The notes under the pieces: model-generated | What the model saw: only the letters and a program-made list of their open reading frames with translations | Told to the model about the DNA's origin: nothing | The model's database searches: none | Assembly (NCBI RefSeq): GCF_000718095.1 | Contig: NZ_JOEI01000019.1 | Span: 186,001 to 250,000, forward strand | Length of the DNA stretch: 64,000 nt | Reading direction: 5' to 3' | Source of the DNA: Streptomyces scopuliridis RB72 | GTDB taxonomy: Bacteria; Actinomycetota; Actinomycetes; Streptomycetales; Streptomycetaceae | Shown: positions 39,329-59,672 of the stretch, one piece after another | Numbering within the stretch: position 1 is the stretch's first letter | Layout of the letters: each line of letters opens with the position of its first letter | Translations under genes and position numbers: made by a program

Positions 39329-39334
39329 TGAGTG

Positions 39335-43536: not shown

Positions 43537-43668
43537 TCCAGGCAGAAAACTCTCCCCCCCACGAGAGGGCCAGGTGATGGCAAACTGCCGGTCATGACCA
43601 GCCACGCGCATCTCTGTCAGCTGGGCGAATTTCCCGAGGCCTGGCGCCGCGTCCTGCGAGGCATCTGA
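43537..43668 (+). pseudogene. Stub of an Xre regulator (class-1 promoter plus first codons)
   Basis: The 675-base gap 43099-43773 has no intact gene. A degraded class-1 box (TCCAGGCAGAAAACTCTCCC, 43537-43556) is followed 34 bases later by an ATG at 43594. The frame reads MTSHAHLCQLGEFPEAWRRV and stops after 24 codons. This parallels the intact starts MSRDAHLSELGEFLKARRAE and MTRNAHLNELGEFLKTRRAE. The rest of the regulator is gone. Confidence 0.7.
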
Positions 43669-43773
43669 CAAACAGGGCCGGATACGCGCCGGCAATGACA
43701 ACGAAGCGGGTTCTGCCTCCGGGCACGCCGACGAATAAGGCTAACGACCTTCCGCCGACCCGAAAGCGTACGC

Positions 43774-44424
43774 ATGTCAACTGAACTTACCGAGTCAGAT
43801 GTTCCTTCCCCCACCGGGCCCGCCTCGGCGCCGTCACGGCGCACGTTCATCGCGACGACCACCGCGGTCGGCGGCATCGCCGTGGCCGGCGGCCTGGTCG
43901 CGGGGCCGCCCCCGCTGGGCGTCGAGGAAGCGGCTGCCGCCGAAGCAACCCCCAGCGGCCGTGTCTCGCTGACGGTCAACGGGAAGCGGCACACCATCAC
44001 GGTCGACAACCGGACCTCGCTGCTCGACCTGCTGCGCGAACACCTCGGCCTGACCGGCTCGAAGAAGGGCTGCAACGCCGGTGCGTGCGGCGCCTGCACC
44101 GTGCTGGTCGACGGCCGCCGGGTCAACTCCTGTCTGACGCTGGCAGTGCGCCTGGAAGGCGCCGAGGTCACCACCGTCGAAGGGCTCGCTCCGGGCGGCG
44201 AGGACGGTGAACTGCACCCGCTCCAGGCGGCGTTCGTCGAGCAGGACGCCTTCCAGTGCGGCTACTGCACCCCGGGGCAGATCATGTCCGGCGTCGGCTG
44301 CATCCAGGAGGGCCACACCGGCTCGGCGGAAGAGATCCGGGAGTGGATGAGCGGGAACATCTGCCGCTGCGGCTGCTACGTGAAGATCGTGCGCGCGGTC
44401 GAGCAGACCGCCCGCGGGAAATGA
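43774..44424 (+). CDS. Tat-exported [2Fe-2S] subunit of a molybdenum hydroxylase
   Basis: A 216-residue iron-sulfur subunit like PaoA/YagT. A Tat signal (SRRTFIATTTAVGGIAVAGG) precedes the ferredoxin domain, whose cluster motif is CNAGACGACTVLVDGRRVNSC. The second cluster motifs are CGYCTPGQIM and CRCGCYVKI, in the four-helix domain. It starts the three-gene oxidase operon; only this subunit carries an export signal, so the complex is probably carried out as a folded unit. Confidence 0.92.
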   Translation: MSTELTESDVPSPTGPASAPSRRTFIATTTAVGGIAVAGGLVAGPPPLGVEEAAAAEATPSGRVSLTVNGKRHTITVDNRTSLLDLLREHLGLTGSKKGCNAGACGACTVLVDGRRVNSCLTLAVRLEGAEVTTVEGLAPGGEDGELHPLQAAFVEQDAFQCGYCTPGQIMSGVGCIQEGHTGSAEEIREWMSGNICRCGCYVKIVRAVEQTARGK

Positions 44425-44436
44425 GGCCAGGTCCCC

Positions 44437-45417
44437 GTGTATCCCTTCACCTTCACCAAGGTCTCCGACACCCGCGAGGCCCTCAACGCAGGCCGCCGCG
44501 GCGGGCGTTACATCGCCGGCGGCACCACCCTCGTCGACCTGATGCGTGAGACCGTCGAACGCCCCGAAAGCCTCGTCGACATCAGTGATCTGCCGCTGCG
44601 CGAGGTCACCGTCACCGAACGCGGCGGTCTGCGTATCGGCGCGCTGGTGCGGATGGCCGAGGCCGCCGCCCACACCAAGGTCCGCACCACCTATCCGGTC
44701 GTCTCAGAGGCGCTGGAGCTGAGCGCGTCGGCCCAGTTGCGGAACATGGCCACCATCGGCGGAAACATCATGCAGCGCACCCGCTGTACCTACTTCCGCG
44801 ATGTGACGGCCGCCTGCAACAAGCGTGAGCCAGGATCGGGTTGCGCGGCACGGGAGGGCTACAACCGCACTCACGCCATCCTCGGCACGTCCGACGCCTG
44901 CGTGGCCACCCACCCCTCCGACGCCGCCGTCGCCTTCGCCGCCCTGGAGGCGACCGTCAACCTGATGGGCCCGGACGGCGAACGCAGCCTCCCCTTCGCG
45001 GACTTCCTGCTGCGTCCGGGCAGCACCCCCGACCGCGAACAGGCGCTCCGCCGGGGCGAGCTGATCACTTCCGTGGAGATCCCGGCTCACCCGCGTCCTC
45101 TCAAGTCCGGCTACCTGAAGGTCCGCGACCGGCAGTCCTACGAGTTCGCCCTGACCTCGGCGGCCGTCGCCCTGCACATCCGTGGTGGAGTGATCCGGGA
45201 AGCGAAGATCGCCACCGGTGGCGTGGGCACCGTGCCCTGGAAGCTCCCCACCGTCGAGCAGCACCTCGTCGGCGAGCGGCCCTCGGCCCGGCTCTGGGCC
45301 CAAGCGGCCGAGCGGGCGGCGGACGGCGCCCGCCCGCTGGCCCACAACCGCTTCAAGATCGCACTCCTCAAACGCACCGTCGAACGCCAGCTGCGCACCG
45401 TAGGAGGTACGAAGTGA
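44437..45417 (+). CDS. FAD-binding subunit of the molybdenum hydroxylase
   Basis: A 326-residue subunit like PaoB/YagS. It starts at GTG (YPFTFTKVSDTREALNAG). RYIAGGTTLVDLMRE gives the FAD pyrophosphate loop, and QLRNMATIGGNIMQRTRC is the second flavin motif. CTYFRDVTAACNKREPGSGCAAREG carries Cys spacing that in E. coli PaoB binds an extra [4Fe-4S] cluster. It lies 12 bases after the iron-sulfur gene and overlaps the next by four bases. Confidence 0.92.
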   Translation: MYPFTFTKVSDTREALNAGRRGGRYIAGGTTLVDLMRETVERPESLVDISDLPLREVTVTERGGLRIGALVRMAEAAAHTKVRTTYPVVSEALELSASAQLRNMATIGGNIMQRTRCTYFRDVTAACNKREPGSGCAAREGYNRTHAILGTSDACVATHPSDAAVAFAALEATVNLMGPDGERSLPFADFLLRPGSTPDREQALRRGELITSVEIPAHPRPLKSGYLKVRDRQSYEFALTSAAVALHIRGGVIREAKIATGGVGTVPWKLPTVEQHLVGERPSARLWAQAAERAADGARPLAHNRFKIALLKRTVERQLRTVGGTK

Positions 45418-47606
45418 GCCCGCAGCCCCAGGCAGCCGTCGGCGCTCCGCTGTCCCGGGTGGACGGACGCCTGAAGGTGACCGGGAGAGCGACGTACGCC
45501 GCCGACCACGACATCAAGGGTGCCGTCCACGCGGTCGTCGTCGACAGCACCATCGCCCGCGGGCGCGTCACCGGCATCGACACCCGGGCAGCACTCGCCC
45601 TGCCCGGCGTACTGAAGGTCATCAGCCACCTCAACGCACCCAGGCTCGCCTACCGTGACGACCCGAACCTGAACAACCCGCCGGGCCGGCGGCTGCGGGT
45701 CTTCCAGGACGACAAGGTCCTCTTCCACGGCCAGCCGGTCGCCGTCGTCGTGGCCACGGCTTTGGAGACCGCGCAGCACGCAGCGAGCCTGGTCAAGATC
45801 GGCTACGACGCGCAGAGCCCGTCGACCGATATGAGCGGCAGCGACCGTACGAACGAACCCGCGACCTATGCCCGTGGCGACGCGGACGGGGCGATCGGAT
45901 CCGCCGCCGTACGGCTGGAGATGGCCTACCGGACGGCTCGCAACCATCACAACGCGATGGAGCCGCAGGCCACCGTCGCCCGCTGGGACGGCGACCGGCT
46001 CACCCTGTGGGACAAGACCCAGTGGGTGCTCGGCACCCAGAACGAACTCGCCTCCGTATTCGGACTTCCTCCGGAGTCGGTGCGCGTCATCTCGCCGTTC
46101 GTCGGCGGCGGGTTCGGCACCGGTGTGCGGACGTGGCCGAACGTCACGGTAGCGGCCCTCGCCGCACGCGAGGTGGGCCGCCCCGTCAAGCTCGTACTGA
46201 CGCGCAAACAGCTGTACTTCGCCGTGGGGTACCGGCCCGTGTACGAGTACGGCGTGCGCCTGGGCAGCGACCGTCGCGGGCGCCTGACCGCGATGACCCA
46301 CGATGTGAGAGCAGAGACCTCGACCTACGAGGATTTCACGGAGGCCATCCTGGTCGCGGGGCGGATGCTCTACAGCATGCCCCACGTCAGCCAGACGTAC
46401 CGCAGAGTGCCGCTGGACGTGAACACGCCGACCTGGATGCGCGGTCCCGGTTACGCCAACGCCTCCTTCGCCATCGAGTCGGCGCTGGACGAACTCGCCC
46501 ACGAAATAGGCGTCGACCCCATCGAACTGCGCCGGCGCAACGAGCCCGACGACGACGAGTCCAGCGGGCTGCCGTTTTCCACCCGGCGGCTGCGCGACTG
46601 CTACACCACCGGCGCCCGCGAGTTCGGATGGCACCGCCGCAACCCGAAACCCCGCTCCACCCGCGACGGTGACTGGCTGATCGGCACCGGCATGGCCACC
46701 GGCGTGTACGACGTCCTGCGGAGTCCGGCGCAGGCCCGGGTCAGGCTCGACGCCGACGGCACCGCGCTGATCGAGTCCGGGACCAGCGACATGGGCCCGG
46801 GCACCTACACCTCCATGACCCAGGTCGCCGCGGACGCCCTCGGACTGACGATGCGCAACGTGACCTTCCGGCTCGGCGACTCCCGCATGCCGCCGACCCC
46901 TCCACACGGCGGTTCACAGACCATGGGCACGGTCGGATCCGCCGTCCAGGACGGCTGCGACACGGTGCGACGGCAGGCGATCCGGCTCGCCGTCGAAGAC
47001 CGGGAATCACCGCTGTACGGCGTGGATCCCGACGGCATCGTCGTCCGCGCGGGCCGACTGCACGTGAAGGACAACCCGGTGCGCGGGGAGACCTACCAGC
47101 GGCTGCTGGCACGCAATGAGCGCACCCACCTCGAAACGCTCGGGTCCTTCCAACCCGGCGAGTCCCGGTTTTCGATGTACGCCTACAGCGCGACGTTCGC
47201 CGAAGTCGCCGTCGACGCGAGCCTGGGCCTGGTACGGGTCCGGCGGATGCTCGGTGTCTGCGACGCGGGCCGCATCATCAGCCCCAAGCTCGCCGACAGC
47301 CAGGCGCTCGGCGGCATGGTCGGCGGCATCGGCACAGCCCTGCTGGAACACACCGTCACCGACCACCGCGACGGCCGTATCGTCAACGCCAACCTCGCCG
47401 ACTACCTCGTCCCCGTCAACGCCGACATCCCCGACCTGCGGGCGATCTTCATCGACGGCGAGGACCTCGAAGCCGCCCCCATCGGAGTCAAAGGACTCGG
47501 GGAAGTCGTCCATATCGGCGTGGCACCCGCCATCGCCAACGCCGTCTTCCACGCCACCGGCCGCCGCGTCCGCGAGCTGCCCATCACCGCCGAAGCCCTG
47601 CTCTGA
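45414..47606 (+). CDS. Molybdopterin-binding catalytic subunit of the hydroxylase
   Basis: A 730-residue subunit like PaoC/YagR. It starts at GTG inside the previous stop, with TAGGAGG upstream. Family motifs include SRVDGRLKVTGRATYAAD, the cofactor segment GGGFGTG, and RGPGYANASFAIE. The catalytic Glu lies in the last segment (GVKGLGEVVHIGVAPAIANAVF). Such enzymes oxidise aldehydes or hydroxylate N-heterocycles. With the Tat-signalled partner it is probably an exported aldehyde oxidase; the substrate is unknown. Confidence 0.92.
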   Translation: MSPQPQAAVGAPLSRVDGRLKVTGRATYAADHDIKGAVHAVVVDSTIARGRVTGIDTRAALALPGVLKVISHLNAPRLAYRDDPNLNNPPGRRLRVFQDDKVLFHGQPVAVVVATALETAQHAASLVKIGYDAQSPSTDMSGSDRTNEPATYARGDADGAIGSAAVRLEMAYRTARNHHNAMEPQATVARWDGDRLTLWDKTQWVLGTQNELASVFGLPPESVRVISPFVGGGFGTGVRTWPNVTVAALAAREVGRPVKLVLTRKQLYFAVGYRPVYEYGVRLGSDRRGRLTAMTHDVRAETSTYEDFTEAILVAGRMLYSMPHVSQTYRRVPLDVNTPTWMRGPGYANASFAIESALDELAHEIGVDPIELRRRNEPDDDESSGLPFSTRRLRDCYTTGAREFGWHRRNPKPRSTRDGDWLIGTGMATGVYDVLRSPAQARVRLDADGTALIESGTSDMGPGTYTSMTQVAADALGLTMRNVTFRLGDSRMPPTPPHGGSQTMGTVGSAVQDGCDTVRRQAIRLAVEDRESPLYGVDPDGIVVRAGRLHVKDNPVRGETYQRLLARNERTHLETLGSFQPGESRFSMYAYSATFAEVAVDASLGLVRVRRMLGVCDAGRIISPKLADSQALGGMVGGIGTALLEHTVTDHRDGRIVNANLADYLVPVNADIPDLRAIFIDGEDLEAAPIGVKGLGEVVHIGVAPAIANAVFHATGRRVRELPITAEALL

Positions 47607-47803
47607 ACAAAGGCCCGACAGAGCACCCGGGTGGCCGGCTCATGGAGAGACGGCCATCAGGGTGCCCCACGACCGCCCGGCGGCTTACCGCGGTCCGCCG
47701 CCGGGCTTCTGGGGCCGCCGCCGTGTCACTTTCACCCCCGACGACTCGGTGGCGGCCCGCCCCAACCGATCTCTCACGTCGCCCGCCACATGGAGACCCG
47801 CCC

Positions 47804-48940
47804 ATGCTGAACATCGCGGACACGCTCTACGAATGGTGCCGCGAGGCCCGCTCCTTCGCCCTCGCCACCGTCGTCCAGGTCCGCGGGAGCGCGCCTCTGC
47901 CACCCGGCACCTCCCTCGCCGTTGACACCGACGGCCACGTAGTCGGCAGCGTCTCCGGCGGCTGCGTCGAGAGCGCCGTCTACGACCTGTGCCAACAGGT
48001 GCTGGCGGACCGCGGTACCCCGACACGAGCCCGGTTCGGCTACTCCGACGACGACGCCTTCGCCATCGGCCTCACCTGCGGCGGCGAAATCGAAGTCCTG
48101 GTGCATCGCGTGACCCCCGCGGACCGGTCCCATCTCACCGCATCGCTCGAAGCAGTCGTACGCGGCCGGCCCGCCGCCGTCGCCCAGATCGTGGACGGCC
48201 CCGAGCATCTCCTCGGCCGTGGCCTTTCCCTCCTCGGTGACGTCAGCACGTACCACGGAACCCTCGACAGCGAGACCGTGAACCGGGCAGTGGCGGCACA
48301 GGCGCGCGCACTGTTGCGGGCCGGCCGCACTGCCTGTACCGAGGTCGGCGGCGACACCGACGCCTGCCCCGAGAAGCTGTCCGTGCTCGTCCACACCCGC
48401 GTGCCCCGTCCCCGCATGCTGATCTTCGGCGCCGTCGACTTCGCCGACGCCTTGAGCCAGGCCGGTCGTTTCCTCGGCTACCGAGTGACGGTGTGCGATG
48501 CCCGCCCCGTCTTCGCCACCCCCGCCCGCTTCCCCCACGCCGACGATGTCGTCGTCGACTGGCCGCATCGCTATCTGGAGCAGACCGAGGTGGACGCCCG
48601 CACCGCGATCTGCGTCCTGACCCACGATGCCAAGTTCGACATTCCCCTGCTGCGCCTGGCCCTCCGCCTCCCGGTCGGCTACGTCGGCGCCATGGGCTCC
48701 CGGCGCACGCACGACCACCGGCTGAAGGCGTTGCGAGAAGCCGGCGTAACCGTCGATGAACTGGCCCGCCTGCGCTCCCCGATCGGGCTTGACCTCGGCG
48801 CCCACACCCCCGAGGAGACAGCGACCTCCATCACCGCCGAGATCATCGCCCACACCCACCTCGGCACCGGCCTGCCCCTGTCCCGCAGCACCGGACCCAT
48901 CCACCACCCTGCGCCGGGAGCTCTTTCCCCGGCCGCATAA
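47804..48940 (+). CDS. XdhC-family molybdenum-cofactor maturation protein
   Basis: A 378-residue XdhC/CoxI protein. The XdhC_CoxI segment reads SFALATVVQVRGSAPLPPGTSLAV and GSVSGGCVESAVYD. A Rossmann-fold C-terminal domain follows (RMLIFGAVDFADALSQAGRFLGYRVTVCDAR, then YVGAMGSRRTHDHRLKALREAG). Such proteins bind and load the sulfurated cofactor into hydroxylases. It follows the oxidase genes by about 200 bases and should serve them. Confidence 0.9.
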   Translation: MLNIADTLYEWCREARSFALATVVQVRGSAPLPPGTSLAVDTDGHVVGSVSGGCVESAVYDLCQQVLADRGTPTRARFGYSDDDAFAIGLTCGGEIEVLVHRVTPADRSHLTASLEAVVRGRPAAVAQIVDGPEHLLGRGLSLLGDVSTYHGTLDSETVNRAVAAQARALLRAGRTACTEVGGDTDACPEKLSVLVHTRVPRPRMLIFGAVDFADALSQAGRFLGYRVTVCDARPVFATPARFPHADDVVVDWPHRYLEQTEVDARTAICVLTHDAKFDIPLLRLALRLPVGYVGAMGSRRTHDHRLKALREAGVTVDELARLRSPIGLDLGAHTPEETATSITAEIIAHTHLGTGLPLSRSTGPIHHPAPGALSPAA

Positions 48941-49068
48941 CGCGCGACCTGCCCACCGCAAAGCAGGGAATGCCCATCGCGTAGAAGGAAGTTCTCCCCT
49001 CGCACAGAATTCGCGCCGAACTTCGTACAACAGGTGGCAGGGTGATCCTTGACCGGATGACGTCACGA

Positions 49069-49935
49069 TCAGCTTGCGGCGTCAGCACTCGGCTCGTGGT
49101 TGGCGGCCCAGGAGGCGAGGAAACGCAGCCCCTCGTGGGAGGGAGTGCCCGGCTCCGCGGTCAAGATGACGAGTTGCTGGTCGGGATCCGTGGGACAGGC
49201 GAGGGCCTCCCAGTCGAGGGTGAGGTCGCCGGCCACGGGATGGCGGAAGATCTTCGTCCCCGTCGAGTGGTGGGCCACGTGGCGGGCGGCCCACCACTCC
49301 CGGAACTGAGGATCCCGTTCGGACAACTCATCGACGAGTGCGGTCATGCGCGGATCGCCCGGGTTATCCGCTGCTTCCATCCTCAGAAATGCCACGGTGT
49401 TACGCGCGGAGCTTTCCCAGTCCGCATACAATTCCCTGAAAGCGGGATCGGTGAAGACCAGTCGCACAGAATTGCGATGCTCCTCCGGAATCTGGGAGAA
49501 ATCCGTCATCAGGGCGGCGGCGAGGGAATTCCAGGCGAGAATGTCCATACGGCGGCCGAGAACGAGGGCGGGGGTGTCGGTGAGATTGTCGAGGAGTCGC
49601 CGCGTCGGGGGCCGGACCTTCTGCGCCGCCTGCCGACGTGGCCGCGCGTTCTCCTTCCCGGCCAGTTGGAGCATGTAATCGCGCTGGTCCTCATCCAGAC
49701 GCAGCACCCGGGCCAGGGCTAGCAGGACCGGAGTGGAGGCCTCGATCCGGCCCTGCTCCAGGCGCGTGTAGTACACGGTGCTGATCGCGGCCAGTTGCGC
49801 CACCTCCTCCCGGCGCAGGCCCGGGACCCGCCGCAGGGCGCCGCTCTCGGGCAGACCCATCGCACGAGGGCTCAACTCGGCGCGCCGGGCCTTGAGGAAT
49901 TCACCCAGCTCACTGAGGTGTGCGTCCCTGCTCAT
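49069..49935 (-). CDS. Xre-family regulator with MmyB-like ligand domain, class-1 promoter
   Basis: A 288-residue regulator. The helix-turn-helix is VPGLRREEVAQLAAISTVYYTRLEQGRIEASTPVLLALARVL. The MmyB-like domain has RRMDILAWNSLAAALMTDF and TKIFRHPVAGDLTLDWEALAC. It is close to the gene at 58745-59614. It is divergent from the dehydrogenase at 50805, although a regulator stub lies between. The class-1 box is 45 bases upstream of its ATG. Confidence 0.9.
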   Translation of the reverse strand: MSRDAHLSELGEFLKARRAELSPRAMGLPESGALRRVPGLRREEVAQLAAISTVYYTRLEQGRIEASTPVLLALARVLRLDEDQRDYMLQLAGKENARPRRQAAQKVRPPTRRLLDNLTDTPALVLGRRMDILAWNSLAAALMTDFSQIPEEHRNSVRLVFTDPAFRELYADWESSARNTVAFLRMEAADNPGDPRMTALVDELSERDPQFREWWAARHVAHHSTGTKIFRHPVAGDLTLDWEALACPTDPDQQLVILTAEPGTPSHEGLRFLASWAANHEPSADAAS

Positions 49936-49980
49936 GCTGGTCACGGTACTGCGGAAGCCGCTCCTGCACAGCTCGGCTGG

Positions 49981-50004
49981 GGGGTAGAGATCTATACCTG
50001 GAAC
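49981..50004 (-). promoter_or_regulatory. Class-1 Xre box, copy 1
   Basis: On the minus strand the box starts GTTCCAGGTATAGATCTC and ends TACCCC. It matches the box at 59649-59672 at 21 of 24 positions. TATAGAT could be a -10 element. It lies 45 bases before the regulator start codon. Confidence 0.75.
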
Positions 50005-50299
50005 ATGCGTCTCCAGTACGTGATCGGTGTCCATTTTTCCGGTCGTGGTAATCAGGGAAACGGGGAAATCCGAGGGGACGCGATACCTTCTGCATTCTCG
50101 TAGCCACCGACATGCGGGTCGAATAATCTGCCCCCTGCACCCGTGCGGATTCATTTGGGGTTGACTGAACTCTCGCGTTGGACAGCCGGGGCGGTCGGAG
50201 GATTGCGACGGATGCCGGCGGCACAGTTCACGAGGGCTTGTAGCGATCCTGCGTTCTCGATTGCACGGACTGTGTACAGGCGCACGGGCCCGGGACTCG

Positions 50300-50418
50300 A
50301 CTCGACATGCTGAGCCGTAAGATCCCGGCCGCTCGATCGAGATGCGGAGCCGCGTTCATGACAGCCAAGCCCCCTTCTTCGGGTAATTCGCTGGGGGGCA
50401 GGGTTTTATACCCGGAAA
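50300..50418 (-). pseudogene. Second Xre stub with class-1 box
   Basis: The 869-base gap 49936-50804 holds no intact gene besides promoter elements. At 50395-50418 a class-1 box reads, on the minus strand, TTTCCGGGTATAAAACCCTG then CCCC (19 of 24 positions). An ATG follows 35 bases later (50359), opening MNAAPHLDRAAGILRLS, a faint echo of MTRNAHLNELGEFLK. Beyond that no homology is visible. Confidence 0.55.
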
Positions 50419-50804
50419 GATCTCTCCCATTGTCGCGTCCGGGAGGCGATGGCACCGTTACATGTGTGCCCATCGCAGATCGGAAAGACGGTTGCCGGCC
50501 CGGCGTTCTTCTCCCCGGGAGTCATAACCCCGCCGGATCAGACAGGCAACGGTCCGTGCACAACGAATGAGCACGCGCGACGCAGACCCGATCTGCCCCG
50601 GTGGCCGACCGGGGAGCATCCGCGTCGGGAGGCGCTGCCGCGGCGGCCCCGGTAAGGACGAGACGGCTCGGCGCTGCCTTCCCGTCGGAACGGCCGCGAC
50701 TGCCCCGCCCAGATGCCTACGCCAATCGCGGTCGGCCGGGGTGACTGCCGTGATGCCCCGCCGCTCACTCCTTCATTTCATATGTTCAGAAAAGAGAAGC
50801 ACCC

Positions 50805-51572
50805 ATGGCAACGAATCTGACCGGTACCGTCGCTCTCATCACCGGCGCGAGCAGCGGAATTGGCGCCGCCACCGCCCGCCGGCTCGCCGAGCGAGGCGCC
50901 TCTGTGGCGCTCGTGGCCCGTCGCAAGGCCCGTCTCGAAGAGCTGGCCGCCGAGATCGAGAAGGCCGGCGGCACCGCCCTGGTCGTAGAGGCGGACATCA
51001 CCGACCGCACCCAGGCCGAGGCCGCCGTGCGGCAGACCGTCGAGCGCTTCGGACGGCTGGACATTCTGGTCAACAACGCCGGTCTCATGCTCCTCGGGCC
51101 CGTCGTCGGCGCTGACGTCGAGGAGTGGGAGCGGATGCTCGCCATCAACGTCCAGGGCCTGCTCTACACCACCCGCGCCGCCCTGCCCCACCTGCTTGAG
51201 GCCGCTGAGGACGGACCGCGCCGGGTCGCCGACATCGTCAACATCAGCTCCATTGCCGGACGCGTCGCCTGGAACGGCTACGGCGTCTACAACCTCACCA
51301 AGTTCGGCGTGAACGGCTTCACCGAGTCCCTGCGACAGGAAGTCACCCAGCGGCACGTCCGCGTCAGTGTCCTGGAGCCGGGCGGCGTCGACACCGAACT
51401 CGGTTCCCACAACGACCACAAGCCCGAGGTCCGCGAAGCGATCGGCACCTTCTACGAGCAGACCGAGGTCCTCGTCCCCGATGACATCGCCGACGGCGTC
51501 GCCTACATCGTGACCCGGCCTCGGCGCGCCTCGATCGCCGAGCTCTGGGTCATGCCCACCGACCAGGCCTGA
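50805..51572 (+). CDS. Short-chain dehydrogenase/reductase
   Basis: A 255-residue SDR. The cofactor motif is TGASSGIG, followed by NNAG, the catalytic Ser in ISSIAG, and the YNLTK version of YxxxK. An Arg in VALVARRKARLEEL suggests NADP(H). A longer than usual leader separates it from the divergent Xre gene. The family reduces carbonyls on varied small molecules; the substrate is unknown. Confidence 0.9.
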   Translation: MATNLTGTVALITGASSGIGAATARRLAERGASVALVARRKARLEELAAEIEKAGGTALVVEADITDRTQAEAAVRQTVERFGRLDILVNNAGLMLLGPVVGADVEEWERMLAINVQGLLYTTRAALPHLLEAAEDGPRRVADIVNISSIAGRVAWNGYGVYNLTKFGVNGFTESLRQEVTQRHVRVSVLEPGGVDTELGSHNDHKPEVREAIGTFYEQTEVLVPDDIADGVAYIVTRPRRASIAELWVMPTDQA

Positions 51573-51597
51573 GGACCACGACGACAAGGAGAACGCG

Positions 51598-51959: not shown

Positions 51960-51999
51960 CCCCTCACCGCCGACGCCGTACCCCTCGAAGGAGGAGGCA

Positions 52000-52977
52000 A
52001 TGAAACACACGCGTCTGGGGTCTTCGGGCCTCACCATCAGCCGTATCGCCCTGGGAACCATGGGGTTCGGCGACGGATCCCGGGAGAAGTGGGCCCTCGG
52101 CTACGAGGCTGCCGCACCGTTCTTCCAGCAGGCACTCGACCTGGGGATCACCTTCTGGGACACCGCCAACATCTACAGTTTCGGCGCCTCCGAAGAGATC
52201 GTCGGCCGGGCGGTCAAACAGTTCGCGCGGCGCGACGACATCGTGCTGGCGACCAAGGTCCACCAGCACATGCACGACGGCCCCGGAGGCTCCGGGCTGT
52301 CCCGTAAAGCGATCATGGAGCAGGTCGACGCGTCGCTCACCCGCCTCGGCACCGACTACGTCGACCTGTACCAGATCCATCGCTTCGACCCGCAGACTCC
52401 GGTCGAAGAGACGATGGAGGCGCTGCACGACGTGGTCAAGGCGGGCAAGGCCCGCTACCTCGGCGCATCGAGCATGTTCGCGTGGCAGTTCGCCAAGATG
52501 CAGCACGCTGCCGAGCTGAACGGGTGGACGACGTTCGTCTCCATGCAGGACCAGTACAACCTGGTGCAGCGCGGGGAAGAGCAGGAGATGTTTCCCCTGC
52601 TGGCCGACCAGGGTGTCGGGAGCCTGCCGTGGAGTCCGCTGGCCGCGGGCGTCGTCGCACGGCCGTGGGGCGTGAACGACACCCAGCGAGGCAAGGACAA
52701 CCCGAGCACCGACTTCGACGGGCGCCCGCTGTGGCAGGACAGCGACAAGCCGACGATCGACGCGGTTGAGCGCATCGCGAAGGACCGAGGAGTGTCGATG
52801 GCCACGATCGCGCTGGCCTGGGTGCTCAAGAACCCGGTGGTCGACGCCCCGATCGTGGGCGCGACCAAGGACCACCACCTGCCCGCCGCCGTGGCGGCGC
52901 TCGACATCACCCTCACCGACGACGAGGTGACCGCGCTTGAGGAGCACTACGTGCTGCGCGAGCCCACCTACTTCTAG
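52000..52977 (+). CDS. Aldo/keto reductase
   Basis: A 325-residue cytoplasmic aldo/keto reductase. ATG follows GGAGGAGG. The catalytic residues are in DTANIYSFG (Asp, Tyr), LATKVHQ (Lys) and YQIHRFD (His). The C-terminal AIVGATK-like PIVGATKDHHL binds the cofactor phosphate side. It forms a run with the dehydrogenase and the broken reductase upstream. The family is that of YajO/YeaE-like reductases; the substrate is unknown. Confidence 0.9.
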   Translation: MKHTRLGSSGLTISRIALGTMGFGDGSREKWALGYEAAAPFFQQALDLGITFWDTANIYSFGASEEIVGRAVKQFARRDDIVLATKVHQHMHDGPGGSGLSRKAIMEQVDASLTRLGTDYVDLYQIHRFDPQTPVEETMEALHDVVKAGKARYLGASSMFAWQFAKMQHAAELNGWTTFVSMQDQYNLVQRGEEQEMFPLLADQGVGSLPWSPLAAGVVARPWGVNDTQRGKDNPSTDFDGRPLWQDSDKPTIDAVERIAKDRGVSMATIALAWVLKNPVVDAPIVGATKDHHLPAAVAALDITLTDDEVTALEEHYVLREPTYF

Positions 52978-53003
52978 GTCCTGTCCGGCCGGACAGGACC
53001 TAG
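52974..53003. terminator. Perfect 30-bp palindrome at a stop codon (GGTCCTGTCCGG repeat, copy 3)
   Basis: CTAGGTCCTGTCCGG is followed directly by its reverse complement, with no spacer. It contains the TAG stop codon of the aldo/keto reductase. It can act as a terminator. The arm shares GGTCCTGTCCGG with the repeats at 24646 and 36370, suggesting two insertion-sequence ends joined. Confidence 0.75.
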
Positions 53004-53046
53004 TCGGCCCGAAGAGCAGACCCGCACCCCTGAGAGAAGAACCAGC

Positions 53047-53418
53047 ATGAGTTCCTGGAGCCGGACACAGCTTCGTGCGATCGCCGAGAACGCGGATCTC
53101 TTCGTTTCCCCGTTCCGTGAGGACGGCGCCACCTACGGCACCCCGACCCAGACCTGGGCACTCGTCGTCGAGGGCGATGTCTACGTGCGTGCCGCCAACG
53201 GACAGCGGTCGACGTGGTATCAGGCGGCCGTCAGCCAGAAGGCCGGTCGCGTACGCGTTGCCGGTAAGGACTACGAGGTCACCTTCGAACCCGTCGGCAG
53301 CGACGTCGACACCGCTGTCGACGCCGCCTACGAGGAAAAGTACCCGGGCAGCCCAGCCGTGCCGATCATGCGGGGTGACGGACCGAAATCGGCGACAGTC
53401 CGCATCTCACCCCGCTGA
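53047..53418 (+). CDS. DUF2255-family protein
   Basis: A 123-residue protein of the DUF2255 family (WSRTQLRAIAENADLFVSPFREDG, TWALVVEGDVYVRAANGQRSTWYQAAV, AYEEKYPGS). It has a compact beta-rich fold and no known activity. It is often found beside oxidoreductases, as here. Confidence 0.85.
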   Translation: MSSWSRTQLRAIAENADLFVSPFREDGATYGTPTQTWALVVEGDVYVRAANGQRSTWYQAAVSQKAGRVRVAGKDYEVTFEPVGSDVDTAVDAAYEEKYPGSPAVPIMRGDGPKSATVRISPR

Positions 53419-53446
53419 ATCCCGCCACTGCCCCGCGGCACATGAA

Positions 53447-53905
53447 CACGGTGTGCTGCCCGCCTCGCTGGACGAGACCCTGTCCCGCAGCCGCTTCGTG
53501 TTCGTGCTGGCCACCGTCACGGACGAAAACCGCCATCTGATCGGAGAACGCGAACTCGAACTGCTGCCGGACAGCGCACGCCTCGTCCTGGTCAGCCGCG
53601 CACCGGTCGTCGACTACCCGGCGCTGCTCGCCCATGTCGCGCGCGGGCGCCTGCTCGCCGGCATCGACGTATGGCCGGAGGAACCGGTCGCCGCTGACGA
53701 CCCTGTCCGCGATCTCGACGGTCTGGTGCTCTCCGCACATCGTGCGGGCGGCATGCCGGAGGCCTTCCAGGCCATCGGCGACATGGTCCTCGATGACCTG
53801 ACACTCCTCGCCCAGGGGCTTCCACCCGTCCGTATGCAGAGCGCCGCCCGTGAACTGGTCGGCCGCTATCGCAATCGGCCCGTGACCTGCCTCCGGAGCA
53901 GGTGA
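53447..53905 (+). pseudogene. C-terminal remnant of a D-2-hydroxyacid dehydrogenase
   Basis: HGVLPASLDETLSRSRFVFVLATVTDENRHLIGERELELLPDSARLVLVSRAPVVDY and GIDVWPEEPVAADDPVRDLDGLVLSAHRAGG match the C-terminal half of a hydroxyacid dehydrogenase of the phosphoglycerate-dehydrogenase family. The catalytic His lies in SAHRAGG. The N-terminal half and the NAD motif are missing and there is no convincing start, so it is a remnant. Confidence 0.75.
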
Positions 53906-53910
53906 CCGCC

Positions 53911-54115
53911 ATGGGGCACGGCCGCCGATCGGCCGACACTGTTGCGCTCCTGGTGAGCGACCCGGAGGAACGACCGGCCGCGCTCGCCGCGATCGACCGC
54001 CTGGAGGTCGAGGCCGCGGCCGCCACCACCGCGCTCCCCGGCGCCCTCGAATTCCTGGAGAGCCTGCCGCGCGGCCGGTGGGCGCCGACGCCCTCCGGCA
54101 CACGAGGGACCGCGG
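53911..54115 (+). pseudogene. Fragment of a HAD-family phosphatase
   Basis: HGRRSADTVALLV, ALAAIDRLEVEAA and ALPGALEFLESLPRGRWA resemble the cap and motif II region of sugar-phosphatase-type HAD enzymes. The DxDGT nucleophile region and the last third are missing. It follows the hydroxyacid dehydrogenase remnant without a gap. Confidence 0.55.
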
Positions 54116-54236
54116 ATGCCGAGCCGCACTCCACCCCGGCAGTGGCGGCGACGCCGGCGTGCAGGCGTGGTGCCTGCCCGGAGGCCTGGGGGCGCCACGC
54201 GTGCCTTCCCGGTCGGCGTTCACCTCACGGTTGCCG

Positions 54237-55301
54237 TCAGCCGACGATGACCACCGGCTTGACGACGGTCTGGTCGCGGCTGCGCATCAGTTCGAGGCTC
54301 TGCCCGACCGCGTCCCAGCCGTGCAGCACATGAGTCGCGAGGGGCTGGGTGTCGAGCTTGCCGTTGGCGATGAGGAGCAGGAGGCGCTCCATGTAGTCCC
54401 TGCCCTGGTTGGCCTGAGCCGCGGTGAGGAACTTCTCCATCACTCCGTAGTTCCAGACGTTCATCGGGATGGTCACGGTCTCGTCGTCGAAGAATCCCGA
54501 GACCACCGATACGTGGCCGCCGAACTTCGTGAGTCTCATGGCCGTGCCGATCTGGTCACTCGCGTTGCCGCCGCTGGCGACGAGCACGCTGTCGACCTGC
54601 GTGCCGCCGGTCAGCGTCATGATCTGCTCGTAAACGTCACCCTTCTTGTAGTCGACGAGGTCGGTCGCCCCGTACCGCGTGGCGAGGGTCATCGTGTTCG
54701 GGCGCGAGCCGACGGCGATGATGCGGCCGGCCCCTCGGAGCGCCGCGGCAGCCACTCCCATCAGCCCCACGGGCCCGACGCCCAGTACGACGACGACCTC
54801 ACCGAACTGGATCTCCATCCGCTCGACGCCGGTGAATCCGGTGGCTGCCATGTCGTCGACGGACACGGCCTGGACATCGGTGACTCCGTCGGGGATGTGC
54901 GCCAGGTTGGAGTCGGCGTCGAAGCACTTCACCAGCTCGGAGAACCACCCGCCGTTGGTCGGGTCGTCGGAGAAGTAGGGGCTCTTGCTCTGGTGGAACT
55001 TGCCCTCTCCTCGCTGCGCCCGAGGGTGGCGCCAGTCGGCCAGCCCGGCGGGAAGAACGACACGGTCTCCGGGGGCGAAGTCGGTGACCAGGTCGCCGAC
55101 GCGTTCGACGACCCCGACCGCTTCGTGGCCGATGACCTTGCCCAGCGCGTTCGGGAGCGAGAGCGAGTCGATGAGATGCACGTCCGTCGTGCAGGTCGCC
55201 ACCGCGGTCGGGCGGACCAGGGCGTCGTACGGTCCGATCTCCGGTACGGGGACCTCCTGCCAGTCGGCGCGGCCCTTCTCTTGGATGACGTAGCCCTTCA
55301 T
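54237..55301 (-). CDS. Secondary alcohol dehydrogenase, zinc-dependent (TBADH type)
   Basis: A 354-residue medium-chain dehydrogenase. It follows the Thermoanaerobacter/Clostridium secondary alcohol dehydrogenases closely. The catalytic zinc ligands are Cys in CTTDVH, His-Glu in GHEAVG, and Asp in DDMAATGF. The four-Cys structural zinc loop is absent, as in that group. GVGPVGL and AVGSRPNT form the cofactor site, with GSRP favouring NADP(H). It likely interconverts secondary alcohols and ketones. Confidence 0.9.
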   Translation of the reverse strand: MKGYVIQEKGRADWQEVPVPEIGPYDALVRPTAVATCTTDVHLIDSLSLPNALGKVIGHEAVGVVERVGDLVTDFAPGDRVVLPAGLADWRHPRAQRGEGKFHQSKSPYFSDDPTNGGWFSELVKCFDADSNLAHIPDGVTDVQAVSVDDMAATGFTGVERMEIQFGEVVVVLGVGPVGLMGVAAAALRGAGRIIAVGSRPNTMTLATRYGATDLVDYKKGDVYEQIMTLTGGTQVDSVLVASGGNASDQIGTAMRLTKFGGHVSVVSGFFDDETVTIPMNVWNYGVMEKFLTAAQANQGRDYMERLLLLIANGKLDTQPLATHVLHGWDAVGQSLELMRSRDQTVVKPVVIVG

Positions 55302-55375
55302 GGCTCACTTCCTTTCGTGTGGTCTTCACGGGGTCCGGCCGGCCCGGCGTAGCGCCGTCGGCCACCGGCCACCGG

Positions 55376-56098
55376 TCAGGCGGGGTTGGGGGATGGGTGG
55401 TTGTCGAACAGGCCAGGGGTGTCGTGGGTGATGACGTTCTCCTGGGGCGGGACCCTGTCGAGGCGGTAGCTGTTGTCCGGGGACGCGTGGTCTTCGTGTC
55501 CGAACGAGATGCCGAAGAACAGCTTCAGGTCGTCGGGAACGTCCAGGACATCGCGGACGGTGTCGGCGTAGAGGCCCAGCACGGTCTGAGGGATTCCGCC
55601 CAGTCCCCGGGCGGCGAGGGAGAGCAGGAAGGTCTGGGCGTAGATGCCGATGTCGCCGCCCACGCGCACGCCGTCACCGAAGGCGGGAGCGAAGAGCATG
55701 GCCACGTGGGGAGCGCCGAAGAACGCGAAGTTGCGCCGGTCCGCCACGCGGCGTGCTTCGCGGTCCGACCGGGCGATACCCAGGGCGTCGTTGCGGGTCT
55801 TGGCCTGGTGCCCGGAGCGCTGTGCGTACGGGCCGAAGTACTCGTTCTGGTCGAAGGTGAAGTCGCCGGACACTTCACCGGCGGCTTCGGCCCGCAGAAG
55901 CTCCTTGCTCAGCAGATCACGCTGCCGGCCGGAGACGATGTGGATCTGCCATGGCTGGGTGTTGCAGTTGGAGGGGGCCATCCGGGCGTCCTCCAGCACG
56001 CCGCGGATCTGCGCGGCGGGCAACGGATCCGGCAGGAACGCGCGAACGGCGTGACGGGCCCGGACGGCCTCGGCGAAGGAAAGGGTGTCGCCAGACAC
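55376..56098 (-). CDS. Nitroreductase-family flavoprotein
   Basis: A 240-residue FMN-dependent nitroreductase. ARHAVRAFLPDPLP, APSNCNTQPWQIHIVSG and GGIPQTVLGLYADTVRDVL match the family, with ISFGHED in the C-terminal part. It reduces nitroaromatics, quinones or related acceptors with NAD(P)H. It is one of three linked reductases on this strand. Confidence 0.9.
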   Translation of the reverse strand: MSGDTLSFAEAVRARHAVRAFLPDPLPAAQIRGVLEDARMAPSNCNTQPWQIHIVSGRQRDLLSKELLRAEAAGEVSGDFTFDQNEYFGPYAQRSGHQAKTRNDALGIARSDREARRVADRRNFAFFGAPHVAMLFAPAFGDGVRVGGDIGIYAQTFLLSLAARGLGGIPQTVLGLYADTVRDVLDVPDDLKLFFGISFGHEDHASPDNSYRLDRVPPQENVITHDTPGLFDNHPSPNPA

Positions 56099-56233
56099 AA
56101 TGCTCCTCTTGCGGACGGGGTGGACGGGGTGGCAGCACGGCGATGCCCGTGCCTCGATGGGACGTACGCACGTGTTGCCGTGCGGCAGGCGCCTTCCGGC
56201 TGACGTTCGGTCTCTGGACTCCCGCGATGCCTT

Positions 56234-57220
56234 TCACATGGCTACTGCGGGCGGGAATTCGAGGATGAGCCGCCCCCGCAGGCCGCCCTTCCCAAGCAGC
56301 CGATGAGCCTCGGGAGCCCGGTCGGCGGGCAGAGTCGCCGCGACTCGGAGGGTGAGCTCCCTCGATTCGGCCTGTTCGCGCAGCCGGGTGATGGCCGGCT
56401 GGTCGGTTGCGCGCGAGCGGACGTTCACGGGGTGCACGGTGATGCCGCGGCCGGGATCGCCGTCCCAGAAACGCAGGACCGCGATCTGGCCGTTGTCGCG
56501 GATCGCGGGCGCGATCCGGTCGTGCAGCATGGCGCCGTCCGCGACCGCGTCGGCTCCACCGGGCACAACGTCCAGTACGCGCTGCGCGATGTCGTCGCCG
56601 CGCGCGACGAAGATGTCGGCGCCGTGGGAACGCAGCCACTCCTCGTCGTGCGCCGAAGCCACCGCGACGACGCGCAGGTCCTCTGCGGCGGCGAGCTGGA
56701 CGACGTAGCCGCCGACGGCGCCGCCGGCTCCGGTGACGACCAGCGTCGAGCCGGGCACGAGGGCGAGGGCGTCCAGGACGCTCCGGGCGGTCAGCGCATT
56801 CATCAGGAACGACGCCGCCTCGGGGAACGTCGTGCCGGCCGGCTGACGTGTGACGGACGCGGCCGGAAGGACGACGTACTCGCTGTAGCCGCCGTGACGG
56901 CCGTGATTGTCGACGATGCCGATCACCGGCTCGCCTTCGGACAGCCCGTACGTGGCCTTGACGTCGTCCGCGATCTCGTCGATCGTTCCCGCCACGTCCA
57001 TGCCGGGAATGAACGGAGGTTCGAGATCCCGGTACCACTCGGCAAGGGAGCCGTCGCGGAGCATGGCGTCGGCCGGATTCACCCCGGCGGCACGTACCCG
57101 TACCCGCACCTCGCCGGGGCCGGCGTGCGGTTCGGGAAGCTCGACGGTGTGCAGCACTTCCGGGCCGCCGTAAGTGTGGAGGCCGATCGCTTTCATGGAG
57201 GGGGACTGCCTTGTGCTCAT
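56234..57220 (-). CDS. NADPH:quinone reductase-like medium-chain oxidoreductase
   Basis: A 328-residue zinc-free quinone-reductase-type protein (MKAIGLHTYGGPEVLHTVELPEP, AAGVNPADAMLRDG, FIPGMDVAGTI). The cofactor motif is TGAGGAVGGYVVQLA. ATG 57220 has GGAAGGA upstream; a second ATG eight codons on has none. It reduces quinones or enones. It is read in the same direction as the nitroreductase and the Old Yellow Enzyme. Confidence 0.9.
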   Translation of the reverse strand: MSTRQSPSMKAIGLHTYGGPEVLHTVELPEPHAGPGEVRVRVRAAGVNPADAMLRDGSLAEWYRDLEPPFIPGMDVAGTIDEIADDVKATYGLSEGEPVIGIVDNHGRHGGYSEYVVLPAASVTRQPAGTTFPEAASFLMNALTARSVLDALALVPGSTLVVTGAGGAVGGYVVQLAAAEDLRVVAVASAHDEEWLRSHGADIFVARGDDIAQRVLDVVPGGADAVADGAMLHDRIAPAIRDNGQIAVLRFWDGDPGRGITVHPVNVRSRATDQPAITRLREQAESRELTLRVAATLPADRAPEAHRLLGKGGLRGRLILEFPPAVAM

Positions 57221-57394
57221 GAGGAGGTGTTCCTTCCGTGGGTGCCGACGGCCGGCTCACCCGGCGCCCCTTGGCTAGTGCCGCGACCGGCAATGTTTGC
57301 CCGGTCGGAGCGGCGTCCGGTGCGTGTGATCGCAAGGCGGCCGGGAGCCCTTGTAGCGGAGCTACCTGGGCTTGCACGGGAGCCGGCCCACCTC

Positions 57395-58507
57395 TCAGCG
57401 CTTGCCGCGCCGTCGGACGGCGTAGCCGTACTGCTCGGGCCAGCGGGGCTCGGCGCCGAGTTCGAGTGCGGCGTGCTGGGGCCAGTAGGGGTTGCGCAGC
57501 AGTTCGCGGCCGAGCAGGACGGCGTCGGCCTGTCCGGTGGCCACGATGTCCTCGGCCTGGCCGGGCTCCAGGATCAGGCCGACGGCGCCGGTGGGGAGCC
57601 CGGTCGCCGCACGCGTCCGGGCGGCGAAGGGCACCTGATAGCCGGGACCGACGGGGATCGTCGCGTCGGGGACCATGCCGCCGGTGGACACGTCCAGCAG
57701 GTCGACGCCGTGGGACTGGAGTTCTTTGGCGAGGCGGACGGTGTCGTCGCCGGTCCAGCCCTCGCGCTCGTCCTGCGGATTCTCGGTCAGCCAGTCCGTG
57801 GCCGACGTGCGGAAGAAGACCGGCAGGTCCTCGGGCCACACCTGGCGTACGGCGTCGACCACCTGAAGGGGAAAGCGCAGGCGGTTCTCGAAGCTGCCGC
57901 CGTAGGAGTCGGTGCGGTGGTTGGAGGCCGGAGAGAGGAAGGAGTTGATCAGGAAGCCGTGGGCGCCGTGCAACTCGACCACCTGGAAGCCAGCGGCCAG
58001 CGCGCGCTTGGCCGATTCGGCGAAGTCGCGTACCAGCTGCTGGATCTCGTCCACCGTGAGCTCGTGCGGCACCGACCGTCCGGTAAACGGCGCCGGGCTG
58101 GGCGCGACCGTCTGCCAGCCGCCCTCGGCCTCGGGTATGTACCCGCCCGTGAGCCAGGGCTTGTCGACGGATGCCTTGCGGCCGGCATGACCGAGCTGGA
58201 TGGCCGGGACCGACCCGTGGGAGCGGATGGCTGCGGTGATGCGGGCGAACGCTTGCTGCTGGCGGTCGTTCCACAGGCCCAGGTCCCAGGGGGTGATGCG
58301 CCCGTCGGGCCGTATCCCGGTCGCCTCTGCCATCACCAGCCCGGCGCCGCCGGCGGCCCGGCCGGCCAGGTGGGTGAGGTGGAAGTCGGTCGGCACCCCG
58401 GTCTCCGGCCCGTCCGAGGCGGCGGAGTACATGCACATCGGGGACGTCCAGATGCGGTTGGGGATCTCAAGTGACCGCAGGGCCAGGGAGGTGAACAGGG
58501 TACTCAC
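57395..58507 (-). CDS. Old Yellow Enzyme-family NADPH:flavin oxidoreductase (YqjM-like)
   Basis: A 370-residue FMN ene-reductase. TSPMCMYSA has the Cys typical of the YqjM class, AIQLGHAGRKAS follows, and ELHGAHGFLINSFLSPASNHRTDSYGGSFENR carries the active-site His and flavin contacts. GTG 58507 is preceded by GAGGAA. It reduces activated C=C bonds of enones or nitroalkenes. It heads the run of three reductases on this strand. Confidence 0.92.
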   Translation of the reverse strand: MSTLFTSLALRSLEIPNRIWTSPMCMYSAASDGPETGVPTDFHLTHLAGRAAGGAGLVMAEATGIRPDGRITPWDLGLWNDRQQQAFARITAAIRSHGSVPAIQLGHAGRKASVDKPWLTGGYIPEAEGGWQTVAPSPAPFTGRSVPHELTVDEIQQLVRDFAESAKRALAAGFQVVELHGAHGFLINSFLSPASNHRTDSYGGSFENRLRFPLQVVDAVRQVWPEDLPVFFRTSATDWLTENPQDEREGWTGDDTVRLAKELQSHGVDLLDVSTGGMVPDATIPVGPGYQVPFAARTRAATGLPTGAVGLILEPGQAEDIVATGQADAVLLGRELLRNPYWPQHAALELGAEPRWPEQYGYAVRRRGKR

Positions 58508-58744
58508 GGGTGGTTCCTCATCGATGTGGGATGTACTGGCCCAGGGGCGGGCAACGGCTTGGGGGGTACGGGGGGCTGCGTACGGTCCGGCAGCCCGCGC
58601 GCGGGCGAGCCGCCAGAGGTGTCAGTGACGCGACGGTGCGCCACGACACGGCCTTCGCGCAGGACAGACCACGTGGTTATGGATCGCCGATGGCGGGTGC
58701 GCCGCATTCCCTCGACGGTCGCGGGCTGGGCCATACGGGTGTGG

Positions 58745-59614
58745 TCAGGTGGTGGTGTCGGGTACGGGCTGCTGTTGGTTTGTGGCCCAGGAGGCGAGGA
58801 TGCGCAGCGCGTCGTGGGAAGGGGTGCCGGGCTCGGCGGTCAGCACGACGAGTTGCTGCTCGGCGTCGATGCCGGCGGTGAGGGTGTCCCAGTCGAGGGT
58901 GAGTTCGCCGGCCACAGGGTGGTGGAAGATTTTGGTGCCCATCGTGCGGGCGGCGACATGGTGGTCGCCCCACCAACGGCGGAAATCCGGGTCCTGCACC
59001 GACAACTCTCCGACGAGGGCGGCCAGCCGGGGGTCGTCGGGATACTTGGCGGCCTGCATCCGCAGCTGCGCCACGGTGGTGTGAGCGACCTCCTCCCAGT
59101 CCGCGTACAACGTCCTCATCGCGGGATCGGTGAAAAGAATCCGTGTGTGGTTTCTTTTCTTCTCCGGGATTTCCGCGTAATCGGACATCAAGGCGGCGGC
59201 CAGAGAATTCCAGGCGAGGATGTCCGTACGACGGCCCAGAACAATGGCCGGCGTGTCGATCAGGTTGTCCAAAAGGCGCTGCAGCGTGGGCTGCACCTTC
59301 TGCACGGCACGACGGCGAGGCCGGGCCTGGTCCTTGCCGGCGAGTTCGAAGAGATAGTCCCGTTGGTCGTCGTCCAGCCGCAGTACCTGCGCCAGAGCGG
59401 CCAGCACCGGCCCCGAGGCCTGGATGCGGCCCTGCTCAAGGCGGGTGTAGTACTCGGTGCTGATGGCGGCGAGCTGAGCGACTTCCTCACGGCGCAGTCC
59501 CTTGACCCGCCGCAGGCCGCCCGTCTCGGGCAGGCCCACCGCGCGGGGGCTCAGTTCGGCCCGGCGTGTCTTGAGGAACTCGCCCAGCTCGTTGAGATGC
59601 GCGTTGCGAGTCAT
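58745..59614 (-). CDS. Xre-family regulator with MmyB-like ligand domain, class-1 promoter
   Basis: A 289-residue paralogue of the gene at 49069. The helix-turn-helix is VKGLRREEVAQLAAISTEYYTRLEQGRIQASGPVLAALAQVL. The MmyB-like part holds RRTDILAWNSLAAALMSDY and TKIFHHPVAGELTLDWDTL. It is divergent from the dehydrogenase at 59885, with the class-1 box 34 bases upstream of its ATG. The obvious targets are that dehydrogenase and the reductases. Confidence 0.92.
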   Translation of the reverse strand: MTRNAHLNELGEFLKTRRAELSPRAVGLPETGGLRRVKGLRREEVAQLAAISTEYYTRLEQGRIQASGPVLAALAQVLRLDDDQRDYLFELAGKDQARPRRRAVQKVQPTLQRLLDNLIDTPAIVLGRRTDILAWNSLAAALMSDYAEIPEKKRNHTRILFTDPAMRTLYADWEEVAHTTVAQLRMQAAKYPDDPRLAALVGELSVQDPDFRRWWGDHHVAARTMGTKIFHHPVAGELTLDWDTLTAGIDAEQQLVVLTAEPGTPSHDALRILASWATNQQQPVPDTTT

Positions 59615-59648
59615 ATCGCCAGTGTGACACCGAATCGACCGGCAATGA

Positions 59649-59672
59649 GGGGTAGGAATTTATACCTGGAAC
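59649..59672 (-). promoter_or_regulatory. Class-1 Xre box, copy 2
   Basis: On the minus strand the box starts GTTCCAGGTATAAATTCC and ends TACCCC, 34 bases before the regulator ATG. A weaker inverted match (CCGGGTAAGGAATTCTCCCC, 59680-59699) faces the divergent dehydrogenase gene and could be a second site. Confidence 0.75.

Follow-up and report, generated by a model that had tools for sequence, protein, structure and literature searches.

Boxes at intact and decayed MmyB/MltR-type regulator genes of Streptomyces scopuliridis RB72: putative operators in compact promoters that may outlast their regulators

In a 64,000-nucleotide stretch of Streptomyces scopuliridis RB72 (NZ_JOEI01000019.1, positions 186,001 to 250,000; hereafter the window, part of contig C19 in an 8.24-Mb Streptomyces genome, G000), a 24-bp box lies upstream of two intact XRE-type regulator genes, P0001 and P0002, and of two stubs resembling the first codons of such genes. 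What does this box do, and why should it be found where the regulator is not? A first-pass annotation offered two answers, a regulator-promoter unit copied repeatedly or box-and-start remnants kept for a regulatory role. All four of the boxes and both of the stubs that it listed are present in the sequence, but the window holds six clear boxes and one weak one. The reading that we consider probable is that the box is an operator in a compact promoter, and that the promoter of a neighboring enzyme gene can outlive a lost regulator and be served in trans. The intact regulators and their sites are as follows (SDR, short-chain dehydrogenase/reductase).

49069..49935, minus strand: P0001, intact MmyB/MltR-type regulator (HTH_31, MLTR_LBD)
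49943..49948, minus strand: likely −10 element of P0001, TACCGT, 7 nt upstream of the ATG; TA[CG]CGT in 6/6 sequences (window and five orthologs)
49979..50002, minus strand: P0001 box, matrix score 29.6, no inverted partner
58745..59614, minus strand: P0002, intact MmyB/MltR-type regulator (HTH_31, MLTR_LBD)
59621..59629, minus strand: extended −10 element of P0002, TGTCACACT, 4/4
59647..59670, minus strand: P0002 box, matrix score 30.1
59679..59702, plus strand: inverted partner of the P0002 box, 32 bp apart and facing the SDR gene at 59885, matrix score 21.4; missed by the first-pass annotation
59720..59728, plus strand: extended −10 element toward the SDR gene at 59885, TGCGAAAGT, 4/4
59885..60730, plus strand: SDR gene (adh_short), divergent from P0002

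Both regulators match HTH_31 and HTH_3 at the N terminus, an XRE-type helix-turn-helix, and PF17765 (MLTR_LBD) at the C terminus (216.2 and 214.2 bits, cut-off 26.3), and the SDR genes at 50805 and 59885 are divergent neighbors of the SDR/MDR (medium-chain dehydrogenase/reductase) kind that marks this family. The box is a 16-bp pseudo-palindrome, GGGAnnnn|nnnnTCCC, present as the variant GGTA...TACC at both intact window regulators. A 24-column matrix was built from 99 regulator-side boxes, with P0001 and P0002 included and the stubs left out; its consensus is TCCTGGGAGAAAATTCTCCCCCTT, and within the 16-bp core, positions 3 and 14 carry G/C in 79 boxes, T/A in 14 and a mixture in 6, as in a pseudo-palindromic site. 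Six window sites score above 20 and the next best 12.9, and five mononucleotide-shuffled windows peak at 6.2–11.5. The location of the box upstream of regulator orthologs is nearly constant: over 46 regulators the palindrome centre lies 45 from the start codon in 31 cases, 44 in 7, 46 in 4 (two of these, window P0001 and the L106 ortholog, counted from GTG rather than ATG), 43 in 2, and 48 and 40 in one each. Counted in this way to the ATG, the box-to-ATG distances first given as 45, 34, 35 and 34 become 55 (49935), 44 (59614), 45 and 45. A box score of at least 7 is reached by 63/66 regulators with at least 70% identity to P0002, 26/36 at 60–70%, 11/30 at 50–60% and 0/3 at 45–50%; because box frequency falls with identity to P0002 across these 135 regulators (the wider set used for box scoring and residue comparison), the box is confined to a subfamily, and it is best described as the putative operator for a single subfamily of MmyB/MltR-type XRE regulators. 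A lone site at 17776–17799 (minus strand), which scores 12.9 and lacks a −10 element, is probably a chance match.

The box is coupled to a core promoter at a fixed distance. In 77 of the 99 regulators the extended −10 element TGNNANNNT is complete at exactly +30..+38 from the box centre (81 with one base of play), a leaderless-type location, predicted from sequence, some 7–12 nt before the start codon, so that the predicted transcript start of the regulator is its own ATG. According to passages of PMC6742748, leaderless genes make up about 20% of those in S. lividans, where the −10 element is TANNNT. An inverted partner box lies upstream of the regulator box in 36/99 cases at a score of at least 8 and in 42/99 at a score of at least 6, against 1/1980 and 3/1980 in shuffled controls and 0/99 in the same orientation. 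The two centres are always 32 bp (30 loci) or 33 bp (6 loci) apart, and the partner side bears the same −10 element at the same offset, facing outward, with a mean score of +3.0 over the 36 loci (many of them close relatives) versus −6 to −21 at all other offsets from −12 to +12. The paired boxes are a symmetric bidirectional promoter of which the box is one half, and P0002 is a complete case, with boxes at 59647 and 59679 and both −10 elements 4/4. Twelve of the 36 mechanically chosen partner-side open reading frames were scanned; six encode zinc alcohol dehydrogenases, one an SDR, one an aldo-keto reductase (AKR), one an NAD(P)-binding protein and one a DUF899 protein, and two have no family, which fits the SDR/MDR linkage reported in passages of PMC3406030. 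Since each box of an inverted pair serves one of two divergent genes, a lone box is not necessarily the trace of a decayed regulator.

In the proposed mechanism, a regulator dimer would bind the 16-bp pseudo-palindrome, whose centre lies some 45 bp ahead of the transcript start (55 bp in P0001), and the box, adjoining the extended −10 element, would take the place of a clear −35 element, with activation the most likely mode and a regulator mRNA that is probably leaderless. The complete form would consist of two back-to-back modules, 32–33 bp apart, one for the regulator and one for a divergent oxidoreductase gene. Some regulator copies would since have been lost with the enzyme-gene promoter remaining, as at stub 1 (a molybdenum oxidase, or Mo-oxidase, operon) and stub 2 (an SDR gene), and such leftover promoters would presumably be served in trans by P0001, P0002 and a paralog at C19:160.6k. 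The same operators and orphan promoters might instead belong to ligand-released repressors, with dimers bound near −45 and at the divergent site hindering RNA polymerase until a fatty-acid-like ligand binds MLTR_LBD. The boxes do adjoin both promoters, and XRE regulators are described as mostly autoregulatory in passages of PMC12565409, but MmyB is described as an activator in those of PMC3406030, and the box ends just before the −35 position, where no TGAC is seen by eye (alignment A1), as expected for an activator-dependent promoter. Repression is thus regarded as unlikely, though it is the strongest competitor of activation.

The first stub lies in front of the oxidase operon.

43537..43560, plus strand: stub 1 box, matrix score 30.8 (best in the window), R1 E-value 6.9e-7, identity 0.93 over five species
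43578..43586, plus strand: stub 1 extended −10 element, TGGCAAACT, 4/4, zone identity 0.91
43594..43668, plus strand: stub 1 frame, MTSHAHLCQLGEFPEAWRRVLRGI, with a clearly regulator-like start, MTSHAHLCQLGEF
43774..47606, plus strand: Mo-oxidase operon; [2Fe-2S] subunit 43774–44424, flavin adenine dinucleotide (FAD) subunit 44437–45417, molybdenum cofactor (MoCo) subunit to 47606
47642..48940, plus strand: XdhC-type protein after the oxidase genes

The stub 1 box, ranked weakest by the first-pass annotation, is in fact the best family match of the window; the first oxidase subunit, judging from its N terminus, would be exported. Stub 1 with its box is found before the same oxidase operon in 4 of 10 relatives searched (G335–G338, loci L161–L164), and these four informative relatives are members of that ten-genome set; a DNA search of 295 genomes of the genus with the stub 1 region gave a match of any kind in 14, the own genome included and the others partial. 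Conservation was measured as mean pairwise identity against fourfold sites with 20000 resamples, the neutral reference for stub 1 being the fourfold sites of two operon genes in the window and L161–L164. The box (0.93) and −10 zone (0.91) stand against 0.72 at fourfold sites, values reached by 1 and 56 of 20000 resamples. The gap between them has an identity of 0.78 (4589/20000) and the upstream flank 0.43, and codons 1–13 and 14–25 of the stub, at 0.74 and 0.73 (5884 and 8970/20000), are at the fourfold level. The stub 1 codons evolve neutrally, and the start is clearly a relic. A working short leader peptide for the oxidase operon might be imagined from the ATG kept in 5/5 species at the predicted transcript start and from 23–24-codon frames in 3/5, but with codon identity equal to that of fourfold sites, a shifted frame in L164 and, in L163, no stop at the corresponding place, such a function is scarcely credible.

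The second stub lies between P0001 and a divergent SDR gene.

50228..50359, minus strand: stub 2 frame, MNAAPHLD..., 43 codons, start region not conserved
50393..50416, minus strand: stub 2 box, facing left, own −10 element degenerate (2/4), matrix score 23.0, conserved in L161–L164
50409..50432, plus strand: weak box directly next to the stub 2 box (16 bp between centres), facing the SDR gene at 50805, matrix score 2.9, −10 element 4/4 at the right distance; missed by the first-pass annotation
50450..50458, plus strand: extended −10 element toward the SDR gene at 50805, TGGCACCGT, 4/4, zone identity 0.70
50805..51572, plus strand: SDR gene (adh_short)

Compared over the window, L161 and L163, the stub 2 double box has an identity of 0.88 versus 0.68 at fourfold sites (0/20000 resamples), and its start region, at 0.54, falls under the fourfold level. 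The earlier pairing of the stubs is sound for the regulator-like start of stub 1, but the resemblance of MNAAPHLD is weak and rests on position and on a homolog, MSTAPNLNRAAGM, that precedes the P0001 ortholog in G204; this start may be a relic as well. The direction retained at stub 2 is probably that toward the enzyme gene, and comparison of the sequences suggests that the boxes at both stubs are most likely kept as promoters of the Mo-oxidase operon and the SDR gene. Mere decay of stubs and boxes alike, with no function left, would be in keeping with stub 1 codons changing at the fourfold rate, a stub 2 start that cannot be aligned and the existence of further decayed regulators. Both stub boxes exceed fourfold identity, however, and each stub retains a 4/4 −10 element facing the enzyme gene; decay is already disfavored for the boxes by that conservation, and as a full account it is very improbable. 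The idea of box-and-start remnants being kept is therefore supported for the boxes of the two stubs but not for the starts, that of stub 1 being neutral and shifted in one of five species and that of stub 2 lying below the fourfold level. A decoy function is not needed to explain the stub boxes. In the relative uw30 (L165, L285), a box pair at the P0001 locus faces an AKR gene 37% identical to the window AKR gene at 52000, followed by a DUF2255 gene 84% identical to that at 53047; the locus has therefore been rearranged in the window, where the stub 2 double box and the SDR gene at 50805 adjoin P0001.

Boxes with a lost or missing regulator are also found beyond the two stubs.

41503..41526, minus strand: box with −10 element TGCCAAGCT (4/4) and no regulator-like start, matrix score 25.0, R1 E-value 7.6e-6; missed by the first-pass annotation
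C1:263012, own genome (locus L202, C1:259000-269000): third stub, MTRHASLNELGEFLKQC, after which homology ends; box pair at C1:262971-263050

The gene that the 41503 box precedes has a damaged frame in the window (about 40200–41318, minus strand), and its G336 relative has an open frame with a Metallophos domain and a box with an E-value of 2.6e-7. The boxes of the third stub score 30.9 and 24.7, are 32 bp apart and have −10 elements of 3/4 and 4/4; the partner side carries CMD-family and cupin genes. At L199 (G337:C1:77453) and at L267 a box stands before a gene for a major facilitator superfamily (MFS) transporter; L199 also has a 4/4 −10 element, and the Pfam identification of the transporter covers L199 only. 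The 41503 site and the oxidase paralogs of other genomes are boxes without a regulator-like start, and the remnants L181, L229 and L290 retain the first 12–44 and some C-terminal residues, the middle being lost.

In G335, 60–76 bp of the stub 1 promoter recurs twice (78.9 and 86.7% identity), once before an SDR gene (L209) and once beside a DDE transposase gene (L210). Such repeats would be expected if a promoter cassette of box, −10 element and start spread by itself, whether by recombination or on mobile elements, instead of staying behind when regulators are lost, but stubs 1 and 3 run on into regulator codons and L181, L229 and L290 keep both regulator ends, and a self-spreading cassette is accordingly considered improbable. 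Repeated copying of the unit, as first proposed, finds partial agreement in the paralogous regulators, the third stub and the G335 recurrences.

The E-values above come from model R1, made from 42 regulators after 4 without a convincing box (L072, L124, L125, L130) were removed from the 46 scored first; L067 was left out beforehand as its start was uncovered. In the own genome R1 gave 13 matches at E≤1, nine of them below 0.06 (the next being 0.35), and all nine lie at regulators, stubs, partners or 41503. Three of the nine, P0001, P0002 and the C19:160.6k paralog, are found by construction, and these are the only intact regulators among the own-genome R1 matches. The plain box pattern with up to 2 mismatches was dropped for genome-wide use, its 25 matches versus 22 in the reversed control being noise. 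The long pattern CCNGGNAN8TNCCCY-N19-TGNNANNNT, with at most 1 mismatch, gave 10 own-genome matches (control, 0), eight of which are sites named here, and it fails to recover P0001 and stub 2; a further match, C16:123721, was rejected as chance (matrix score −6.8), and another lies at C9:84178. Across eight genomes this pattern gave 51 matches versus 17 in the control, and in G334 the control outnumbers the matches (5 vs 3).

In a survey of 199 Streptomyces genomes with strict filters (own genome counted, R1 E≤1e-6), 56 matches were found in 37 genomes, followed by an intact regulator in 46 cases, a partial one in 7 and none in 3. Two of the partial cases lie at contig ends and one, a 212-residue match, may be intact; two of the three regulator-less matches belong to the own genome. 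The survey searches by box and so counts only those remnants that keep it. All loci gathered amount to 121 distinct modules (84 intact, 8 partial, 29 without a regulator), a set collected around matches and not a frequency.

Several observations weigh against the reading favored here, of operators in promoters that outlive their regulators. Many of the 99 regulators are closely related, and 63 of them have no partner box at the matrix threshold. P0001 itself has neither the usual −10 element nor a partner (the best inverted site scores −17.1), and its palindrome centre, 55 from the ATG, lies about one helical turn beyond the common distance. A GTG start at 49944 would restore that distance and was rejected because of the TA[CG]CGT found 7 nt before the ATG at 49935 in 6/6 sequences. 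The plus-strand box at stub 2 is weak (2.9), and the identity of its −10 zone, 0.70, is not above neutral (8568/20000). The spacer from stub 1 to the oxidase operon has an identity of 0.82 (1/20000), a constraint that extends beyond box and −10 element. Among paralogous oxidase operons, L167 and L206 have 4/4 −10 elements and no regulator-like start, with low box scores (5.4 and 12.4), and no box match was found at L166 and L171. Finally, the proposed binding, activation, control in trans and leaderless transcription are inferred from sequence patterns.

The two forms of the box suggest how paralogs might be kept apart. All 14 regulators with GGTA...TACC boxes have E (9) or V (5) at the variable position of IST[x]YY, and GGTA occurs with 0 of 79 regulators having D. 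The box variant covaries with this one recognition-helix residue, a candidate specificity residue. The position presumably corresponds to Gln29 of 434 repressor, a base-contacting residue, according to a hand alignment. A PDB search returned DdrO and ClgR and not 434 repressor. One subclade of five (L201, L211, L253, L259, L290) has E without GGTA...TACC, so that E is not sufficient for GGTA, and in L245, with V, the box is mixed (GGCA...TACC). These counts lack independence. In the tree, which kept the trait column, the clades of P0001 and P0002 do not group as sisters and two origins of GGTA/E-V are favored; a single origin is not rejected (approximately unbiased test, p 0.277).

A tentative scenario, put forward with less than even confidence, is that the regulon grows by birth and death of autoregulated regulators: a duplicate would bring its two-way promoter to a new neighborhood, the regulator would be lost and the promoter would become a target of the remaining paralogs. 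D to E/V substitutions in the recognition helix would have carried both P0001 and P0002 to a new operator variant, with GGT for GGG in each half-site, and so set their sites apart from those of the third paralog. The loci described here would then illustrate clearly how a regulon may expand when regulators disappear but their promoters stay. For part of a large and poorly characterized actinomycete regulator family there is now an operator that can be tested, along with a rule for its spacing and a residue that may set specificity. This enables target prediction in genomes where, in passages of PMC3406030, Xu et al. propose that antibiotic genes be located with such genes as beacons.

The genome contains 20 matches to PF17765, of which some are partial; those at C5:156723-157104, C10:105109-105321 and C8:172488-172745 are perhaps decayed MmyB regulators of other subclasses. 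Two further MmyB genes of the window, at 39332–40228 and 42217–43098 (both plus strand), belong to another subclass, and no matrix score above 12.9 was found near them; they have in common a different upstream stretch, GAAGTCACTGCTG...GTGTACTGACAGC, which may represent a second operator class.

The regulator family and its divergent dehydrogenase context are already known. The promoter layout, the retention of operators after regulator loss and the pairing of residue and operator were not found in the literature searched, a scope that left the supplement of PMC12565409 and the B-box paper outside. Passages of PMC12565409 describe a similar approach, with palindromic motifs upstream of XRE genes in 223 clusters and 9/10 interactions positive in validation, and the present motif may already be in its supplement. 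SLCG_7083 of S. lincolnensis, in passages of PMC10717218, is a Streptomyces PAS-type protein related to pfam17765, and a search of the text of that paper found none of the words "binding site", "footprint" and "palindrom". Pseudo-palindromic B-boxes (O'Rourke et al. 2009, also referenced in PMC10717218) are suggested as MmyB sites in passages of PMC3406030 (Xu et al. 2012), a likeness to the present box in description. For the SDR-linked members, those passages mention neither an operator sequence nor paired boxes, and neither a −10 rule nor orphan boxes. The MmyB/MltR family (MLTR_LBD, PF17765) that they describe has the domain layout of P0001 and P0002, multiple paralogs per genome, divergent SDR/MDR neighbors and a dimer expected on a pseudo-palindrome, as in the system described here.

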